Assembly (NCBI GenBank): GCA_963457665.1
Contig: OY735212.1
Location: 11,816,683-11,880,682 of the forward strand
Direction of reading: 5' to 3'
Origin: Thysanoteuthis rhombus
Lineage: Eukaryota; Mollusca; Cephalopoda; Oegopsida; Thysanoteuthidae
Length of the DNA stretch: 64,000 nucleotides
A program made the translations under genes and the position numbers. Below are positions 1-59,142 of this stretch, in pieces (position 1 is the stretch's first letter; the number at the start of each line of letters is the position of its first letter). The notes under the pieces are model-generated. The model was not told where the DNA came from. It saw nothing but the letters and a program-made list of their open reading frames with translations, and ran no database searches.

Positions 1-874
1 AAATTTCAAATCCTGTTCCGGCCATGCAGTGCTTTTGCCGCAAATACATTAAATACAGGGGAATGAATGATATCATTGAATTCAGTGCATCAAATTATGT
101 CAGGATCAAGGAAAAACTTAAAATGAAAAATGACTTTTAAAACTCCATTTGGTCAATGCTATGATTCAGCTATATTTGAAAACAACAGATCATCCCAACA
201 AGAGACAATTTATACATTGTACAACATCAAAGTATAGGGGAAACAAAGAGAAATCACTTTTGAAGATTACATAAATTGCATTGACAGATATTGTGAAATG
301 GGTGACTGAAGTGACATAAAGCTGCAAAGCCATCTAGACTATATATCTAACTAGACCTCCCTCTCTTTATTAAAAACTATCAACATCTGGCCAGTAAGAG
401 CGAACAAAAGCTACACTCATACAACTACATACGTTGATATATTTACACACATAAAGCAGGAGTATAAAAAAGTGAAAGAAATTATGATTTTCATTCTTTC
501 ATATAGATATGTTGAGTTAACAGACATGTTTCGCTTATTTGCCATCATCCGTGTGAGGTGAAAGAATGAGAAAGACAATTGTGGCTCCATACATGTCTTG
601 TGGTGAGAATTGGGGAGGATGTGGGGGTTCCAAACCCAAGTTTGACAAGGGATGTTGTAAGAAGAGAAGTATTATATCAATGGTTATAGAGGTGATGTGT
701 TAGTGGCTAGTGTAGATCAGAGAAGTATAATGAAGAAGGGACGGGAAGGAGAAGACAGGGCTGTAAAATGGATAATTTCCTTGGGTTGACCTGGGACGGA
801 ACAGCTGACCCAAGGGAGAAAATATTGTGCAATTTATAGAAAGTCTAAAGTTAAGTATGTGTATAAGTGGGAGT
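1..874. other. No gene recognised
   Basis: AT-rich unique-looking sequence, purine-rich on the plus strand from about 540 to 850. No long frame, TIR or SINE landmark seen. Confidence 0.5.
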
Positions 875-1176
875 GATTAGTGAAATGGGTAAAGGGAGAA
901 GGTAAAGTAAATGTGTGTAAGATGCAGGATGCATATGAGTATATGCGTAAGAGTCATGCAGGATGCGTATGAGTGTGTGTGTGTATGTGTGAAAGAGTTA
1001 TGTAGGATACAATGAGTGCGTGTGTTTAAGCCTACAAGATGCGTGTAGTATAAGTGGGATGTCGAAAAATTAACGTTTTCTAAACAGAAAAGAAATAAAA
1101 GATGGGAAGAAATATAGGAAATCGTTGTGTGTGTTTTGGAAAACATTATCATTTGAATATATTAGATGCCTTAATG

Positions 1177-1346
<170 letters not shown>

Positions 1347-1611
1347 GAAGTGTTTTATAATCCTGTGTTGGGAGGGAGATCAAAAGCGTGGTCCGTTTCT
1401 TAGCGGTATAGTATCAAGGCAGTTTTTTATGGTCGTCTTTTAAAAGAACCGATAAACATTTTTGGGCAATTCTTCCACGGTATTTTGTATATATTCGCCT
1501 CGGGTGTTCAGACGTTTAAGCGTTTGCAACGTTTTTTATGTTTTTGTTTCGATGCGTAGTTTTAGCTTTGTAAGATGTTTTCTGAGTTATGTTGTTGAAT
1601 TTATAGACAGG

Positions 1612-1615
<4 letters not shown>

Positions 1616-1658
<43 letters not shown>
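1616..1658. repeat. (TA)n microsatellite at the 5' edge of SINE-A
   Basis: About 40 bp of pure TA ending at the SINE-A head. The SINE's other end leads to a mixed AT/GT tract at 1890-1945. Confidence 0.9.
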
Positions 1659-1659
<1 letters not shown>

Positions 1660-1895
1660 ATGCTCTTCCAACATGGAACGGAGCACTCTGGTGGACTGGG
1701 AATATATGCATAAATAAATATATCGCCTAAATTCAACCTTACTGACGTCCAGTTCCGTGGAGTAGAGGGAGGATACCAGCCTAAAGCTAAGGTTTCGATC
1801 CTACCTCGTGGTACTAGATGGGATAATGGATAGTCTAAACCCACTCTGAAGAGTTGTAATACAACGAAACAATTTTCTGTGGATGACACAATATT
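1660..1895 (+). repeat. SINE-A copy (tRNA-like), near full length
   Basis: Order seen: ATGCTCTTCCAACATGGAAC, GAGCACTCTGGTGGA, GCATAAATAAATATATCGCC, CCAGTTCCGTGGAGTAGAGG, then GGTTTCGATCCTACC, which resembles a tRNA B box. It ends with GAAGAGTTGTAATACAACG and GTGGATGACACAATATTATA running into a dinucleotide tract. It is flanked by (TA)n on the left and AT/GT repeats on the right. The A-box-like region is clearest in the 55.8-kb copy. Confidence 0.75.
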
Positions 1896-2029
1896 ATATA
1901 TGTATATATGTGTGTGCGTGTGTGTGCGCGTGCGTGGGTGCATGAGTGTGTTCGTCGGACACCATCCGACGCAACCATTTTTAAATTTGACTTAATATGT
2001 AACATGGATCCAATCTTCCACAATCCAAT

Positions 2030-2150
2030 CTTTATAAATGCAACATATTACTGTGAAATTCTATTTATTGCACAGTGAATGCATCATTTGGCCAAGATGA
2101 GTGTAAATCGAATAAACAATCAAAGAAAATTATTAAACAGCTGATCATTT
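2030..2150 (-). repeat. SINE-B body fragment
   Basis: GTAAATCGAATAAACAATCA with AAGAAAATTATTAAACAGC aligns with the 43.0-kb and 43.3-kb copies. The tail side TTACTGTGAAATTCTATTTA is diverged. TTATATATCCATTTCTTGAT near 2200 resembles the tail but lies in the opposite sense. Confidence 0.45.
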
Positions 2151-2244
2151 AAAATGGAGTTCAAAGCAATATAACGCGTATACTATAATGTCCCTCGGAT
2201 TATATATCCATTTCTTGATAATTCGATCCAATCTGCATTTTTTT

Positions 2245-3059
2245 CTCTGGCAAAGGCTAGGGGGCTTTTTCGCAATTGACTAGACTGATGATTGCCTTTT
2301 CACCGCTACCTACCATCTTCATTCAGTCTCTACTGGTTGTTGCACTGCAGTGCAAGATAAAATGGAAACTTCATTTCCGTCAGGATGTCGGATGCTATTT
2401 TGACGCGGATACACGTTGATATGATTTTCATCTCTCCGTCAAAACATTCGCTAACCTTCTTCAGTCGACCACAGAGATGGACAGCCTGCATGGTACTGGT
2501 CTCACGACGCTTTGCAATGATATTACGGTCAGTGTGATCATTCAAATATAGCATGCAGGTGATATCCAAAGATGAATGATCGAATTAATCCTTTTAGTTG
2601 CTCCTTACAGCTCATTCTTCGCGTGAATTTCCAGCAAAACGTACAAATTCTCATCTAATAATATTGTCATTACCAGCCAAATAGTGATTCACTCACTTGT
2701 CGCAATTATAGGCTTGGAAAAATAAGCACGTTTGGTCTGTAACAATCTTCCTACGGAAACTTCTATTTTTAAGCAATAACTTTTTATCAACTATCTTAAC
2801 CAGTTGATCTCAACCTGCCCATGCACCTTTTCTTATCATAGTCCAGAATATCATTCCTTGCTTTCAAAATTGTCTGACCCAAGAAGTACATTCCGAAATT
2901 GTATCTAGCAATGTGTGATTCAAATCGCCCCCTACCTTTGAAGCCCTAAGATACCCCCAGTTTGAAAACCCCTCATTCAAGACTATTTTATGATGCAAAT
3001 AAATAATTTAGATGACTCGTCCAAAAGAGTTGCTAAATACTTTTTTGACCAACGCTGAT
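2245..3059. other. No gene recognised
   Basis: Short frames only (a 79-codon minus frame at 2330-2569 with no known motif). No repeat family identified. Confidence 0.45.
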
Positions 3060-3295
3060 ATAAGGAGATGCAGGGTGGTCGAGCAGGTAACGTTCCGAAG
3101 AATGGACTTGGTGAGCCAGGTTCAAACTCCAGCTTTGGAAGTTTGTGTTCATTTCGCTCTGATACCTTTGGTTATGGCATGAATCTATCGTCTCCCTCAG
3201 TTATGGGTAGTGTAGCGTAGGGTGAAGTATGTGATGCCCCTTCGGATGCTTGTTGCCTCTGAGTCCAATTCACATATCAAAAATAGAACGAGCGA
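3060..3295 (+). repeat. tRNA-derived SINE (SINE-C), single copy here
   Basis: GTGGTCGAGCAGGTAACG resembles an A box and CCAGGTTCAAACTCCAGC is a good B box 40 bp on, the spacing of a Pol III type II promoter. A tRNA-unrelated body follows (TTCATTTCGCTCTGATACCT to TGCTTGTTGCCTCTGAGTCC). The acceptor stem does not pair, so it is not a functional tRNA. Confidence 0.6.
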
Positions 3296-3299
3296 GTAG

Positions 3300-4035
3300 T
3301 AATGTAGTATATGAGTCAAAAGAGGCGTAAGTTCTATTGCATCTATAGTAGTTAAGAATTATTGGTGATTCCCATATAGTTCTTGGGGTAATCACTTACA
3401 CGAATATTGGTTCTAGTGTTGCTTTTTAGTTCTCGTTGAAGGATAGGTGTCCACTGTGTTTGTGGGCCCACATGGACATCAGTGGAAATGTTGAAGGAGG
3501 AAACGAGATGTATGGAGAGAACATGCGTGTCAAGTATGATTGTGGACGTGAAGACAAAAAAAAAAGTTTTTTTACAAGTATTTATATGAACAAACGAAAA
3601 GAACATTTGATGCACAACATTTACGACGAATCAAGAATGAAAATGGAATACATGTAATGAAAACATTGATACGATCGATTGTGTAAAGAAGAGAAGAGAA
3701 GAGTCCAGTTCAGTTTTGAGGGTTGTACCTATACGTAAAGAAATAAATAAAGGAAAGAATGAGTATTTAGAGGACACGTGATATAACCAGTCTAATGTTT
3801 GGTTTATTTATTGAATGGAGCCTGGTTAGTAGTGTCACCGATATATAATGAGTGTTATAGTTGACCAAGCTATATTATAAAAAAGGCAGTTAATTCAAGT
3901 TGGGAACGAGAAGGAGATAAAAGGGGCAAAATAGTAATTGCAGGGTTTGCGTTGTCACCCAAAATAGTATTTGCAGTTTAGCAGTAGATATAAAGTTCTT
4001 GTGAATTCTCACATCAAGGAAGGTAAGTGACAAAA
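3300..4035. other. No gene recognised
   Basis: Overlapping opposite frames of 73-87 codons at 3352-3657 have ordinary AT-rich composition and no motif. Confidence 0.45.
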
Positions 4036-12844: not shown

Positions 12845-12911
<67 letters not shown>

Positions 12912-12934
12912 TCATATATGTATGCATACATGTA

Positions 12935-12970
<36 letters not shown>
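12318..12970. repeat. Cluster of (TA)n, (TG)n and (TC)n tracts
   Basis: TA at 12321-12377, 12415-12448 and 12530-12564; TG at 12565-12599; TC at 12672-12706; TA at 12848-12906 and 12938-12968. The 169-codon frame here is Tyr/Ile/Cys/Leu repeat translation only. It abuts the Penelope-like region. Confidence 0.9.
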
Positions 12971-12972
<2 letters not shown>

Positions 12973-13379
12973 ATTCTAATACGTTTTGTCAAAATGTTTC
13001 ATCGTCAAGCGAGTAATTGAATGTTAGAAGTTCTCTTTGGCTTGACTCCGGTCCGTCAGGCGACTTTTTTGTTTCATTTCTGTTTTGTACGATTTTAATC
13101 GGCAATATATTATATAGTATGTGGTACTTGTTTTAGTATCTCATTTTATAAATAAATCATCAATATATCTTCTATTCTATTTAGGTTTATTTATTTTTGA
13201 TTATCTATATAACGGTGTAAAATAATCTGTATATGAAGAATATCGTTCATTATTAAAAATATGTTTTGTTAAAAATTCTCTTCATTTTTGTATTTAAATA
13301 CGTATTTCTTTTCGTATCTGCCTTTGGGAATTATTCCACTTTTTTAAATGATGTTTCCTTTTCAGATGATGAATATGGT

Positions 13380-15125
13380 TTTTTATTGATATTATTGTAT
13401 ATCTAGGCTCTTGTTAGCATTTTGCCATTTTCATTGTTTCTTTCCGAACCCTCCAATTTCCAAATGTGTCTAGATAGTGGTGTAGTCCGCATGTAAACTT
13501 CATTGTTGAATGTTATTTTATGATATTTATATCGAGTTTTCAATGTTTTTTCGGTCACTCCTATATATACTTTATCGTCTTCGATAGTTGCTGTATATAA
13601 CATTATTAATAGGCATTTTCTCTGAAGTGGATACATTTTTTCATCTCTACAATTACATAGTGTCTTGGTTAATTTTAGTTGCTTGTTATCTTATCATAAT
13701 GACGTTATCAGTACATGAATAGCTAATTTTTATATGATTTCTTCTAAATATTGCATACATTTCATTTGTTCTAACAAAATGTTTATCTATTAATCTAAGG
13801 AATATTTCCCAATATTTGTTAATACACACTTCTTTTATGGTAGATTAAACCATATTAAATTCCTTTTTTCTTTTCTTTCTATTATTTTTGTTGATTGTGG
13901 ATGTATTTTTTATTTGTATCTCAAATCCACTGTTCTATATTGTTAAATGTTGATATGTGTGCCGAATTATCTGATATTCTTTTTGTTGTTATTTCTAATA
14001 TATCTTTAAGTATATTTTGTCGGTGGTTAAACGTAATGTCTATGCATATTGGATGATTGTTTTCTTCTCTATATGTCTTGTCGGTGTTATTATTCAAATT
14101 CAGTGTTACGTCCCAAAGGTTGATATTTTTGCCGACTATTCCATACATTTGAAAATTTTTATTATTTTTTTCTCTATTTTGCCAGTGTATTGCCTCTGAG
14201 ATCTATCAGACAATCATCCCTGTATAATCTTATGTCTTAATTTTACATGTTTGTTCAGTTATTTAGAATTAATACTCCTATCAGTTCACACACTTCCACT
14301 CCATCATAAGTACCCTTGGTTACATTGGATTATCCTGGAGGGATTATCCATGCTTATTTATCGTAGATTGATATAGATTTTCTAACATCCATTGGAAGCA
14401 AATTGTATGGGTTCATGTAGTTTTTATCTTATTTTATGTTTTAAAACCATTCAATCACTTCATTAGTTTTCTTCTATTGTTTTTAATTTAGTTTTCTTCC
14501 TAATTTTCCCTCATTTGAGTTCAACATCTGTTTGCTGATTTTGCTGATGTTGTTCTTCAAAGGCTTTAATAATCTGTACGTTTTTTTTTTTCCTTTCAAA
14601 ATATTTTCGCGGACTTTTAAAGTGATGTAGGCTTCCGTTATTGCTAGAGTGTTAATTCTGTAGGATTTGGGATTTTTTTGGTATAATTTTTGGTTCTTTG
14701 TTCACTTCGTAAGTGATGTTGATTGCCTTTCTGAGTGCTTGTTATATTGTTCTGCAAAAGTTTTTTGGGGTTCATTTGTGCTTATTTTATACGTAGTTTT
14801 GTCAGCTTCTGTGAATTCTTCCTATGATCTTTTAATTTCTTTGAAGTCAGTTTTCAGTTTGGTTTTCAATTGTTCTACCAGTTTTTAATTTTAACATTTT
14901 TAGCCATTTCTGTTTGTTCTCTTTCCAAATTTATCAGGTTCTGTCGTGGTTTGGACTTTGTAGTTTAGAATCTGAAAGTTTGTTTTTCTTTGTCTTTGTT
15001 TTTCGTCTTATCTTTTTTGATGTGGTAAAACGTTTTCAATCTAATTCGTTTGATGAAATTTCCTAACATTTTCTATAAGTTGAATTTTATGTTTTTAGTT
15101 TTGATGATGTTTGTAAGTAATTTAA
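13380..15125 (-). pseudogene. Degenerate Penelope-like retroelement: reverse transcriptase plus GIY-YIG endonuclease
   Basis: Read on the minus strand, the segment follows the Penelope-like element (PLE) protein in order. An N-terminal block has KRIRLKTFYHI, then FKEIKRS and ADKTTYK (14792-14806). AYITLK (14615-14632) is followed in a shifted frame by RLLKPLKNNISKISKQML. Next come GTYDGVEVCELIG (14276-14314), the catalytic YRDD (14213-14224), LWDVTLNL (14095-14118) and a block with NHRQNILKDILE and KRISD. The GIY-YIG-like endonuclease ends the protein at 13403-13636. PLEs copy RNA into DNA at chromosomal nicks or ends. This copy is dead: several stops and frameshifts split it, and the usual C-terminal Cys-rich tail after the endonuclease is missing. 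The plus strand looks T-rich here because the coding strand is A-rich. The 5' limit is approximate. Family assignment rests on motif order and is fairly secure; the PLE subfamily is not. Confidence 0.85.
13403..13636 (-). CDS. Residual open frame of the PLE endonuclease domain (GIY-YIG type)
   Basis: This 77-residue open stretch is the best-preserved part of the Penelope-like element. VYIGVT (about residues 23-28; codons near 13555-13570) is the YIG half of the GIY-YIG fold. LKTRYKYHK supplies the conserved Arg and a following His, and TTPLSRHIWKLE matches the conserved block near the end of PLE endonucleases, where the nuclease nicks target DNA before reverse transcription. The first half of the motif is degenerate. 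The methionine at 13636 is an internal residue, not a real start, because homologous reverse transcriptase sequence continues upstream in other frames. It stops at TRA*, before the expected Cys-containing tail. It is part of the dead element and is not an independent gene. Confidence 0.75.
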   Translation of the reverse strand: MYPLQRKCLLIMLYTATIEDDKVYIGVTEKTLKTRYKYHKITFNNEVYMRTTPLSRHIWKLEGSERNNENGKMLTRA

Positions 15126-15574
15126 CCCGCTCCCTATCCCAGATATATTTTTCTTCAGCAATCATCTAGAATGGATTAGATACAGTCCTAAAGGTTAAAA
15201 GAAAGACCTTTGAAAGGAAGGGTTTTCTAAAGGAATCCATGACATCGAAGTAGCTCAACTATGGTCTTTCAGGCTTGTTAATTTTCAGTCTGATCCACTA
15301 TGTTCCATCGGTTCAAACGCATGTGTCTTTGAATCCAGCTAATCAACTCAAATCATGCCAATCATAAGGAATTCGCATATCCTGTGGACAAGTTCTAGGG
15401 ATAACGTTGGCACCACACGCGCCATATGTATAAATTCTCAATTTTCAATCCCCGATTGTAATATGAGTTTGCTTGAATCCAAGAATGAGAATTGCTGGCA
15501 AAATATTGTATGAAAAACTGTGGCAAATGAAGTGCCCTTCGAATAGTGGCTTTGGTCAAACCCCAGTTGGAGTT

Positions 15575-15744: not shown

Positions 15745-15876
15745 ATTTTTTTATTATAATACAAGATGGAGAGACAAACTAGACAAATTCAGAAAATACT
15801 GGCTCAGTGACGCCCACAATAGAGAGATGTGGCGAATCTTAGGGAAGGTCTATGTCCAACAACAAACGATAAAAGA

Positions 15877-15908
<32 letters not shown>

Positions 15909-15935
15909 CATCATCATCATCATCATCAAAATTTG
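15745..15935 (+). mobile_element. RTE-like LINE terminal 120 bp with (GAT)n(ATC)n tail
   Basis: Translation gives RWRDKLDKFRKYWLSDAHNREMWRILGKVYVQQ in pieces, the end of the family protein, followed by (GAT)n turning into (ATC)n at about 15878-15930. The turn makes the tail self-complementary. Confidence 0.7.
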
Positions 15936-23838: not shown

Positions 23839-23883
<45 letters not shown>

Positions 23884-23885
23884 TT
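23565..23885. repeat. Two (CA)n(TA)n tracts
   Basis: TC/CA/TA at 23560-23641 and CA/TA at 23842-23882; the second leads into the tail of a reverse SINE-A. Confidence 0.95.
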
Positions 23886-24110
23886 AATAACTGTCATCCA
23901 CAGACACCTATTTTGTAGTATTACAACTCATCAATGTGGCCATAGACTATCCAACATCCCTTCAAGTACCACGAGGTAGGATCAAAACCTCCGCCCCAGA
24001 CCAAGAGGCACACATTCTACACCTGGACGGTCAGTAGGACCAAATTAAGTATATTTGCCTACGCATAATTCACCATCTACCAAAGTGCTCCATTCAAAAC
24101 CACTGCGTTA
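23885..24110 (-). repeat. SINE-A copy, near full length
   Basis: On the plus strand: GTCATCCACAGACACC, GTAGTATTACAACTCATCA, ACCACGAGGTAGGATCAAAA (B-box complement), and TAAGTATATTTGCCTACGC with AAAGTGCTCCATTC. Its 3' tail, at the left end, joins (CA)n(TA)n at 23840-23885. Confidence 0.75.
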
Positions 24111-40524: not shown

Positions 40525-42465
40525 AGACTTAGAGGAGGCGTGGCAAGAATGTATCCTTGGTTTGCAGAAGGCGTAGATGCTGTAAAAAGACCTATTAAGA
40601 CAAAATTGACTCAACCCATATAATTTTTTCACTTGTTTAAAATCGAGATTCATCCCTTCAAACTAAAACTCTGTGCACGTATCTTTGCGCTCATTGGTCA
40701 ATTGTGAATCAACACTTCATGACGTGTCAAGTGATACTCCTATGTTTACTAAGTAACAAAAGATAAGGACATTAAAACAGATTTTTATTTTGCTCTGACT
40801 TATAAAGATAGGCAGATCCCAGGCACCCCGGGAAAACTAAAATGTGTCGTTCAAAATATCATATTATTGTATCTTGCAAATAACGAGAATTAACATCAAG
40901 GAACCTTCTTATTTTGACTTTTTAATGCCAAATTCATTTTCACGTTTTTCCATTTGAATTTGCCAAGTCCTACTGTCTCAGATGCATAACAAGCGCTCCT
41001 AATACTTGGTGTCCACGGTGACTTCCAGTGTTGCCAGTACCTAGGGCCGGTTCTGGGGATAGAAAAAATCTTACCAACTGCACCTTTTCTTTGGCATCCA
41101 ATTCATCTTCTAAAATCCATGATACTGAATGGTTTACTGAAAACCTTGAAGAAGGAGAAGAATAACACCGGATGAGACTGAACCGTAGGAAAAAGGGACT
41201 TTAAAAATATAGCTTACAGAAGGTGTGATATTACCTGTATAACAGTCTTGCTTCAGGGACCAAAGTGAGTATCCTTTGATTATTTAATCCTGGTCAAGGA
41301 CGCTTACTTCCTAGCATCTTTTAAAGTTTTCAAAAATCCAAACAGAACCGGAAACTATAGCTTCCATATGCAGACTGATCTTAAACGGATGTTCTTTCCA
41401 CATTACCGATAATCATGGTGGCAGTTTACCGGGCTGTTAAAAACAGGTTGGTTCTCTTGATGCATCCGTTTTCATATACTGTATTTATTCCGGTATAACA
41501 GAAAACATCTATGAACGAATCAGCGATAATAGGTCGTGCTATACTCGAATGCATGCATAACATTTTTTTTTATTCGTTACTAAAATCAAGCTCACAGATA
41601 ACGCAACTCCTCTTTTATAAATATATTCAAGTATTTAAGTAAAAAAAATGGAATGATTTACACAAAAACATTTCAGACACAAAATAGGACTACAGATAAA
41701 TAATCTAAAGATTAAAGTAATGTCCAATGATAAAGAGTTCCCCTGCTCAAAAAAAAAAAAAAAAAATAGACGGTGAAGCCTTACAAGAAAGTAAGGAATA
41801 TTTTCTTAGGGTCAGGCGATAAGCACGAGAAAGACCAGGAAAATGATATAAGATCGCACATAACGAGAGACTGAAAAGCAAATTGCCAATACGCTTAAAA
41901 AGTAAAGTATGCATTATATCGACCCTGACGCATTTGCAGATGCAAAACCAGGAAAACTTTTCAAAACAAACTCAGAGTAGCACTGAAAGCAATGGAAAAA
42001 GCAACGTTAGGAATAACTTATAGCATTAGAAAAACTTAAACCTTATATCTAAAGTAAAAATCACTGCAGCATTACGTTGTTTTCTTTTTAAGTGTAAATG
42101 ACAAAGGCAGTATTATATGAAAGGATAAAACATATTAGTAATTTCAGCTACAAAAAGTGAGGGTTGAAGTAAATCTGTGATAGTCGAATTCTCAGAAGTT
42201 GAGCAGTAGGAACCGTTTATGATTGGACCTGCATTGTGCCAAAACAATAAGAAAGAAACAAGGAGGAATAGTTTTATCAGTCTAAGTTAAAGTTTCCTTA
42301 TCTTGTTTAAAGGTCACTAAATCCGAAACATCTTGAAAATAAAGCCATCCCCAAACAGAAAGGGAAACTGTCATATCTTATTCAGACATTAACGTTAAGG
42401 AATGGAAGTGAGTATTGAGTTGATTGATGCAGGTTTTAAAGAAGCTCGAAAGTCAAGCAAGATAT
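40525..42465. other. No gene recognised
   Basis: Unique-looking AT-rich sequence; an A20-like run at 41748-41766. No frame of interest. Confidence 0.45.
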
Positions 42466-44364: not shown

Positions 44365-44672
44365 CGCTCCCTTTTGGGGGGGTTGAGCACGCATCTGCTG
44401 TAAGCAACTATGCAATGCTCTTCTAACTCTGGAATTGAGCACTCCGGTAGATAAAAAACTATGCTTAAACAAATATATCGCTTGATCTAGTCCAACTAAC
44501 CGCCCAGTTTTGTGTAGGGCTGAGCTAGAGCATCTGCTTCTGGGCCCGGAACAAAGGTTTCAGCCCAACTTAACGGTACTAGAAAGGGCATCAAGTCTAC
44601 TGCCACACCGAAGAGTTGTAATACAACGAAACAGCAGTCTATGGATGACGCAATCATTGATTATACATGTAT
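44365..44672 (+). repeat. SINE-A copy with extended 5' part
   Basis: Begins with a partial repeat of its own head (CGCTCCCTTTTGG, GGTTGAGCACGCATC), then the standard head (GCAATGCTCTTCTAACTCTG), ATATATCGCTTGATCTAGTC, CCAGTTTTGTGTAGGGCTGA, AAAGGTTTCAGCCCAAC (decayed B box), CACACCGAAGAGTTGTAATA and CTATGGATGACGCAATCA. The doubled head also occurs in the 56-kb copy, so it is probably a real family feature. Confidence 0.75.

Positions 44673-55737: not shown

Positions 55738-55795
<58 letters not shown>
55738..55795. repeat. (TA)n at a SINE-A tail
   Basis: A pure TA run ending at the AATCGTGCC end of the reverse SINE-A copy. Confidence 0.95.
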
Positions 55796-55796
<1 letters not shown>

Positions 55797-56005
55797 CGTG
55801 CCATCCACTGACAGCTGTTTCGTTGTATTACACCTCTTCAGTGTGGCAATAGAAAATCCATTATCCCATCCAGTACTACGAGGCCGGTATCCTATCGTTG
55901 AGCCACGGAACTGAACGGTAAAACTGAATTTAAGCGATATATATACTTACGCATAAATTTCCCATCCATGAGAGTGCTCTATTCCTATGGAAGAGCATTG
56001 CACAC
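55795..56005 (-). repeat. SINE-A copy, near full length
   Basis: The plus strand reads GTGCCATCCACTGACAGCTG, TTTCGTTGTATTACACCTC, GTACTACGAGGCCGGTATCC and GTTGAGCCACGGAACTGAAC, then AGCGATATATATACTTACGC and AGAGTGCTCTATTCC. In this orientation GTGGCTCAACGATAGG on the minus strand looks like a tRNA A box, which supports a tRNA-derived head. The tail meets (AT)n at 55738-55795. Confidence 0.8.
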
Positions 56006-56057: not shown

Positions 56058-56365
56058 AATTAATGCTCCTCTACCAGGGTTGAGCACTCTTTGAGTGAAG
56101 TAACTCATTCATTGTAAGCTTATGCAATGCTCTTCCATAGGAATAGAGCACTCTGGTAGATGAGGAGTTTCTGCATAAATAAATATATCGCTTAAATTCA
56201 GCCTCACTGACCACCCAGTTCTGCGGACCAGAGGTTGGATATCGGCCTCTGGTCCGATGTGAGGGTTTCAATTCTGCCTCGCGGTACTGGATGGGATAAA
56301 GTCCATAGCCACACTGAAGAGATGCAATACATCGAAACTGTTGTCTGTGGATGACACAATAATAT
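56058..56365 (+). repeat. SINE-A copy with doubled head
   Basis: A partial head (ATGCTCCTCTACCAGGGTTG) is followed by the standard one (CAATGCTCTTCCATAGGAAT), ATAAATATATCGCTTAAATT, CCAGTTCTGCGGACCAGAGG, GGGTTTCAATTCTGCCTCGC, CACACTGAAGAGATGCAATA and CTGTGGATGACACAATAATA, ending in a short AT run. It is inverted relative to the copy at 55795-56005. Confidence 0.8.
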
Positions 56366-56369
56366 ATAT

Positions 56370-56849
56370 ATCTTTTCCATCTTGTCACTCCATTTTGTGT
56401 CTGGTCTTTTTCCCAGTGCGTCCACTGTCCTACGGTCACTAATCGGTCAGCCTTTTGCACTATCTATTTTTGTTGTTTTTTTCTTTCTTCTCGCTATGCA
56501 CCTTATCCATTTCCATTGTTGTTACCTTATTACTTGTACTATATCTTTCACGAATTAGTACGGAGATACATCAGCGTCCTCTTTTTAATCATAAATGATT
56601 CAAATGGCAGCCATCTTGGAAAAAAGTCCACCACAGCCATAGGATTTTTGTTGGATCCATTGGCAATATTCCCCTTATGTAACTAAGCTATCATGCGTGG
56701 AAGTTTGCTGATTTGTCCATCATGTAGTGCTGTTAAGGGAGCGCACTACTTGCCCCCTCTCGGATCCAAGAGGTATAATCAACATGGCTCTTTTGATGTT
56801 TCTTTCTAAGCTATTCTGAGTTGGTTGCCGTGGGATTTTATGTCTGGTC

Positions 56850-58827: not shown

Positions 58828-59060
<233 letters not shown>

Positions 59061-59061
59061 T

Positions 59062-59135
59062 ATAATTGATAATCGTGTCATCCACTGACAGCTGTTTCGT
59101 TGTATCACAACTCTTCAGTATGGCTATAGAATATC

Positions 59136-59142
<7 letters not shown>
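59062..59142 (-). repeat. SINE-A 3' tail, right arm of an inverted pair
   Basis: The plus strand reads AATCGTGTCATCCACTGACA, GCTGTTTCGTTGTATCACAA and CTCTTCAGTATGGCTATAGA, then breaks into (AT)n. It mirrors 58865-58945 across the intervening (AT)n. Confidence 0.7.

Follow-up and report, generated by a model that had tools for sequence, protein, structure and literature searches.

A decayed retroelement copy on the minus strand

The minus strand of the 64,000-nucleotide stretch of Thysanoteuthis rhombus DNA analysed here (the window) very probably holds, at 12970..15190, a dead and almost end-to-end copy of a Penelope-like retroelement (PLE) with a GIY-YIG endonuclease. These limits are drawn from DNA similarity to other copies, from alignments of the 3′ untranslated region (UTR) and from a protein alignment that reaches 15123; the 3′ boundary near 12970 is accurate to tens of bases and the 5′ boundary (~15123-15190) is less sure. 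DNA similarity with other copies spans 15111 to ~13140 and reaches beyond this in some of them. The extent of 13380..15125 given in an earlier note on this DNA proved too short, since the ORF remnant runs to 13272 and is followed by a 3′ UTR that is common to other copies and continues to ~12970. Within 13000-15200 every listed ORF is shorter than 100 aa, and the motifs were located by translating the minus strand of 13380-15125 in three frames. All those named in the earlier note were recovered where it had put them: AYITLK at ~14638-14612, TYDGVEVCELIG at ~14320-14280, YRDD at 14224-14213, LWDVTLNL at ~14118-14095 and YIG...LSRHIW within 13678-13406.

The ORF remnant (15123-13272, minus strand) is delimited by a frameshift-tolerant alignment to L039, a readable relative described below. 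Its N-terminal part (14640..15123), which precedes the putative reverse transcriptase (RT) fingers, aligns from L039 residue 3 onwards. The fingers follow at 14500..14640, reading AYITLK...RLLKPLKNNISKISKQML by translation and L039 alignment (the L039 counterpart is AFITLKDHKENF...CRLINPAKSEIGRISKQIL). Motif A, which elsewhere reads IQIDIKEFYPIITE (L014) or FIIFDIENFYPSITE (L039), is absent from the window copy; its place (14384..14420) is marked by the loss of ~70-100 nt near 14400-14384 relative to copies L010, L014 and L018. Translation, copy alignments and the L039 alignment together place a motif B-like block, NVTKGTYDGVEVCELIGVLIL, at 14258..14328 and motif C, LYRDD, at 14213..14227. By the same evidence a post-palm block, LWDVTLNLNNNT...RISDNSA, occupies 13942..14130; its family form is NFLDITLNLNNNTYKPYRK...SNHPP. 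Between the RT and the endonuclease lies a Cys cluster, CNCRDEKMYPLQRKC (13613..13657, from translation and comparison with the copies and L039), from which one Cys of the family form is gone. The candidate GIY-YIG endonuclease core, MLYTATIEDDKVYIGVTEKTLKTRYKYHK...LSRHIWKL (13454..13603; translation, copy alignment and profile match), sits in a 91-codon open stretch at 13678-13406. The order of domains in the window is thus fingers, palm (YRDD), Cys cluster, GIY-YIG nuclease and Cys tail.

The Cys-rich tail had been reported as missing. Comparison with copy DNA and the L039 alignment instead reveal a decayed tail at 13272..13408, from which only the CxxC knuckle has been lost, in a deletion of ~30-46 nt at 13380-13346; its remainder (~13335-13280) reads IIPKGRYEKKYVFKYKN as against IISKCRHENKYTLKY in other copies. 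The 3′ UTR alignments cover 12970..13271, and a (TA)n tract at 12848-12968 adjoins the 3′ end of the element. The string RRYIDDLFIK near 13180-13150 was considered as a second RT motif C and rejected as a chance resemblance, as it falls in the 3′ UTR and reads otherwise in other copies. At 15758-15917, a short repeat beside an (ATG)n tract is unrelated to the element; sequence with 72-87% identity to this repeat is present in L021, L023, L026, L028 and L032.

L039, a readable relative

The pattern [FY]DGAE[IV]CEL[VI]G occurs in a single contig among the GTDB genomes (L039; JAAEPJ010000379.1, 3787 bp) and has no match in IMG/VR. IMG/VR likewise returned no relative with A1, A3, A5 and the L039 protein, and none was found in plasmids. 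The record is titled as a bacterial metagenome-assembled genome, yet positions 1-3787 hold two copies from this family of retroelements, both almost readable, and the contig is probably eukaryotic contamination of a bacterial bin. The two copies lie head to head and are 87-95% complementary. A minus-strand ORF of 550 aa extends from motif A to the C-terminus and includes the endonuclease; a second ORF, of 456 aa, spans the protein from its N-terminus up to and including the palm, and a third of 170 aa covers the endonuclease. The host-family majority sequence is 55% identical to L039.

When the L039 proteins were compared with the whole 64 kb window by tblastn, the element was found with E-values of 8.2e-35 and 8.2e-22, and the sole other match was a weak one at 40525-40746 (E 0.43 and 0.34). 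Frameshift-tolerant alignment to the minus strand, a check of the kind proposed in the earlier note, gave scores of 434 (mean 72.6 and maximum 88 for 20 Markov controls) and 286 (mean 69.8 and maximum 90 for 20 controls), with plus strand scores of 64 and 38. The alignment has two slightly overlapping halves, and with the penalties used each of them needs 18 frameshifts and 4 stops. It extends from the N-terminus (15123) to the C-terminal tail (13272), in agreement with the claim of near full length. Six pieces of the window gave no credible match to Pfam, the one hit being unrelated (E 0.042). A chance array of motifs might be suspected in an AT-rich region in which no ORF of at least 100 aa starts. 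The probability of this is negligible: an E-value of 8e-35 with an independent relative, scores far above those of 40 control alignments and DNA in common with 27 other copies refute it.

Copies in the host genome and decay of the window copy

We searched the host assembly (2.73 Gb, 514 contigs) with positions 13150-15200 as a DNA query, and any better-preserved relatives in the genome were sought by this DNA comparison only. At least 53 matches were found, the window included, with 40 of 97 candidates scored; the longer matches have 64-70% identity with gaps. Thirty loci were cut out, which leaves 27 other copies once the window is removed and the same-place pairs L010/L022 and L018/L023 are merged. 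The Jukes-Cantor distance of copies to the window, gaps excluded, averages ~0.27 (range 0.21-0.32), a mean that covers 29 rows as the two double loci enter it twice. The window copy belongs to a set of a few dozen old copies, of which those elsewhere are as broken as it is. DNA matches extend past ~14.4 kb only in L010, L014, L018 and L020; this fits frequent 5′ truncation, although weak matches may be missed. A head-to-head inverted piece abuts the 5′ end, with gaps of 0-110 nt, in six of the 27 copies (L012, L013, L019, L025, L030 and L038). Further pieces left out of this count are an overlapping minus piece in L010, one 1.3 kb away in L021, and same-strand pieces in L033 and L035. Beside the window element itself, where the earlier note had suggested looking for tandem copies, no tandem or inverted copy was detected.

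The family protein was assembled by matching fragments of L014, L016, L018, L024, L030 and the window across copies by tblastn and laying out the copy protein rows against two domain anchors. The resulting alignment extends across the 27 other copies. It has motif A as LIQIDIKEFYPIITEKLLK (in L014, with L031 similar), a motif B-like block DFDVTMGAYDGAEVCELIG and motif C as GLYRDD, followed by the post-palm block and a linker. The Cys cluster then reads CNCRDKNICPLQKKC in copies and CNCRKKEECPLNNNC in L039, the endonuclease VIYKATV...VYIGVTEKTWKTRYNYHK...TTLSKHIWKLK, and the tail KKCMLCL...LNKRSEIISKCRHENKY.

The earlier description of the window copy as dead holds, with motif A lost and the frame broken throughout, and because both are gone the copy does nothing. 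The endonuclease is indeed better preserved than the RT, a single open frame of 91 codons standing against repeated frame changes in the RT part. This open stretch is what would favour domestication of such an element as a host gene maintained by selection. Differences between copies in the endonuclease frame nevertheless hardly vary with codon position (0.228/0.212/0.249 at positions 1/2/3) and look near neutral, as would be expected of decay free of codon constraint. Together with the frameshifts and stops in each half of the L039 alignment, the deleted CxxC knuckle and copies elsewhere that are equally broken, this makes a domesticated gene most improbable. The single window copy is an ordinary dead element of no special importance.

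Library and profile searches of the two domains

The putative RT is assigned from motif order: in L039 and the copies, motif A, the motif B-like block, motif C and the LDVT block succeed one another as in RTs. The L039 protein had no credible match in Pfam, NCBIfam or PDB; its best match in any library was PHROGs phrog_2825, annotated as 'polymerase' (E 9.3e-4), over the region from the fingers to motif A. RT profiles compared with PDB found no RT. A profile-profile comparison with host LINE and LTR RTs was not significant (probability 0.65%), its short alignment falling on the motif B block.

The GIY-YIG motif is present in the window, the copies and L039. A profile of ten GIY-YIG rows had T4 endonuclease II as its sole PDB match (E 0.0063, in a search of 177635 sequences with E up to 10), aligned on the VIY...YIG block. 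A second GIY-YIG profile, from alignment A10, which includes L039, had no match in PDB. Pfam GIY_YIG_2 matched one copy row (L027) at E 0.0042, under the cut-off, and the intact L039 endonuclease had no Pfam match. The motifs and the one weak profile match, which the second profile did not repeat, thus point to a candidate GIY-YIG nuclease. T4 endonuclease II is listed among the GIY-YIG enzymes in a paper on these nucleases (PMC1564403), and the likeness of the element to it and to other GIY-YIG nucleases is the VIY...YIG core aligned by the first profile; unlike the element, T4 endonuclease II is a stand-alone enzyme of a phage and carries no RT. When PF01541 was searched against the host genome, with 150 of 1161 candidates scored, at least seven places lay above the cut-off, none of them at the window or its copies (C1:46602418, C41:14688862, C7:1459321, C35:24968832, C18:25308298, C3:82330359 and C1:60586828); these may be other PLEs. 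Two AlphaFold models had pLDDT values of 42.5 and 33.6 and were unusable.

Probable assignment to the Penelope-like class

A near full-length, dead retroelement carrying a GIY-YIG endonuclease is well supported. Its placement among PLEs, made in the earlier note, is partly supported: the order of domains, the Cys cluster between RT and endonuclease and the head-to-head inverted copies speak for it. Against it, the RT found no credible match in Pfam, NCBIfam or PDB. The endonuclease lies C-terminal to the RT within one ORF, as seen in the 550 aa ORF of L039, and the order in the window is the same. GIY-YIG is at the N-terminus in Naiad/Chlamys PLEs, which are common in invertebrates and might for that reason have been expected here. 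The C-terminal position of the domain in the window, the copies and L039 refutes this type, to which we give next to no credence.

A rival of more weight is an undescribed lineage of retroelements, distinct from PLEs and with an RT of its own, which gained GIY-YIG independently and is PLE-like in layout only. In its favour, the RT has no Pfam or PDB match even in L039, readable as that is, and could not be related here to LINE or LTR RTs, and its motifs B (VTMGxxDGAExCEL) and C (YRDD) depart from those of PLEs. The FLDIT...YRK...SNHPP block, in turn, resembles what we take to be the PLE post-palm block, and head-to-head inverted copies are present. A single ORF with RT, Cys cluster and GIY-YIG is moreover the layout described for Neptune-like PLEs (PMC3846280), and on balance we regard a separate lineage as unlikely.

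Membership of the PLEs is the reading adopted here, and comparison with described PLEs bears on where in the class the element may belong. In the account of Neptune-like PLEs (PMC3846280), RT, Cys-rich stretch and GIY-YIG endonuclease follow one another in a single ORF, and the Cys-rich stretch is found here in the copies and L039. This likeness is one of described layout; the RT motifs here are VTMGxxDGAExCEL and YRDD. Inverted and tandem arrangements are also known from PLEs, according to the same account; six of the 27 copies and L039 have the inverted, head-to-head form. Penelope/Poseidon elements, as the anole Poseidon is described (PMC11167929), are alike in their N-terminal region, central RT and C-terminal GIY-YIG, and likewise have AT-rich surroundings and inverted and tandem copies. 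The element here differs from them in having a Cys cluster between RT and endonuclease, in having no proven hammerhead ribozyme, and in being known from sequence alone.

Hammerhead-like sequences

Rfam reported no hammerhead in the element, in its copies or in L039. By descriptor scan, full hammerhead cores were detected at 3762-3784 of L039, where the end of the contig cuts it off, and upstream of L020. The 3′ ends of copies have a common CTTGANNAG...CGAAACATTTTGTC stretch, which resembles a hammerhead core with the first position altered, and the window 3′ UTR contains a weak hammerhead-like relic at ~13013-12979. A retrozyme hammerhead model of seven sequences matched L020 at 872-957 (E 0.083, or 0.013 unfiltered) and the 3′ end of L034 at E 5.9, and had no match in L039 at E up to 10. 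A hammerhead in the element is a lead only, with none in Rfam and weak support from the retrozyme model for L020 alone.

The same model bears on a further set of repeats in the window. It was built from five repeats in the window and two in L010, and it found two more in the window. These type I hammerhead-like, retrozyme-style repeats have the form CTGAAGAG TTGTAATACAA CGAAAC AGCTGTC with helix I CCACA/TGTGG. By descriptor scan or model they lie in the window at 1822-1905, 44584-44666, 56290-56373 and 58867-58950 on the plus strand and at 59060-59142, 55782-55865 and 23874-23958 on the minus strand, and in L010 at 3109-3192 and 3518-3600 on the minus strand. Rfam reported none in these repeats. 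Metazoan retrozymes, as described in PMC7229834, are non-coding and non-autonomous; repeats of this type I hammerhead kind lie in the same window and are no part of the element. PLEs are named in that paper as candidate mobilisers of metazoan retrozymes.

A possible, though doubtful, extension of the PLE assignment is that the element represents an undescribed clade of retroelements with GIY-YIG, widespread and related to the known PLE clades but outside them. In addition, the element may serve the hammerhead retrozymes in the window as their autonomous partner. The same tentative reading would make the RT of that clade (FDVTMGxxDGAExCEL, LYRDD) too divergent for current detection based on Pfam, NCBIfam and PDB.

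Proposed mechanism and significance

In vitro, an anole PLE nicks AT-rich DNA and begins reverse transcription inside the template, and its hammerhead requires the protein, as reported in PMC11167929. The family studied here encodes one protein, in which an N-terminal region is followed by a putative RT, a Cys cluster, a candidate GIY-YIG endonuclease and, last, a Cys tail. By analogy with the anole element, the protein of a live member would bind its own RNA, the GIY-YIG domain would nick AT-rich DNA, and the RT would copy the RNA from the nick (target-primed copying). Many of the resulting copies would be 5′-truncated, and some would be joined head to head as inverted pairs. Domain order, unconstrained decay, incomplete 5′ ends in most of the copies read and head-to-head pairs in six of 27 are observed, and the enzymatic steps are extrapolated from the anole element. 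An AT-rich target would agree with the (TA)n tract beside the 3′ end, but such tracts are common in this genome.

The element is an ordinary dead member of a poorly covered PLE-type family, and the absence of that family from Pfam, NCBIfam and PDB is the only mildly surprising point. A family of dozens of copies, whose readable relative lies on an unrelated contig, escapes searches of all three, and because it is invisible to them, counts of PLEs made from these libraries may be too low.
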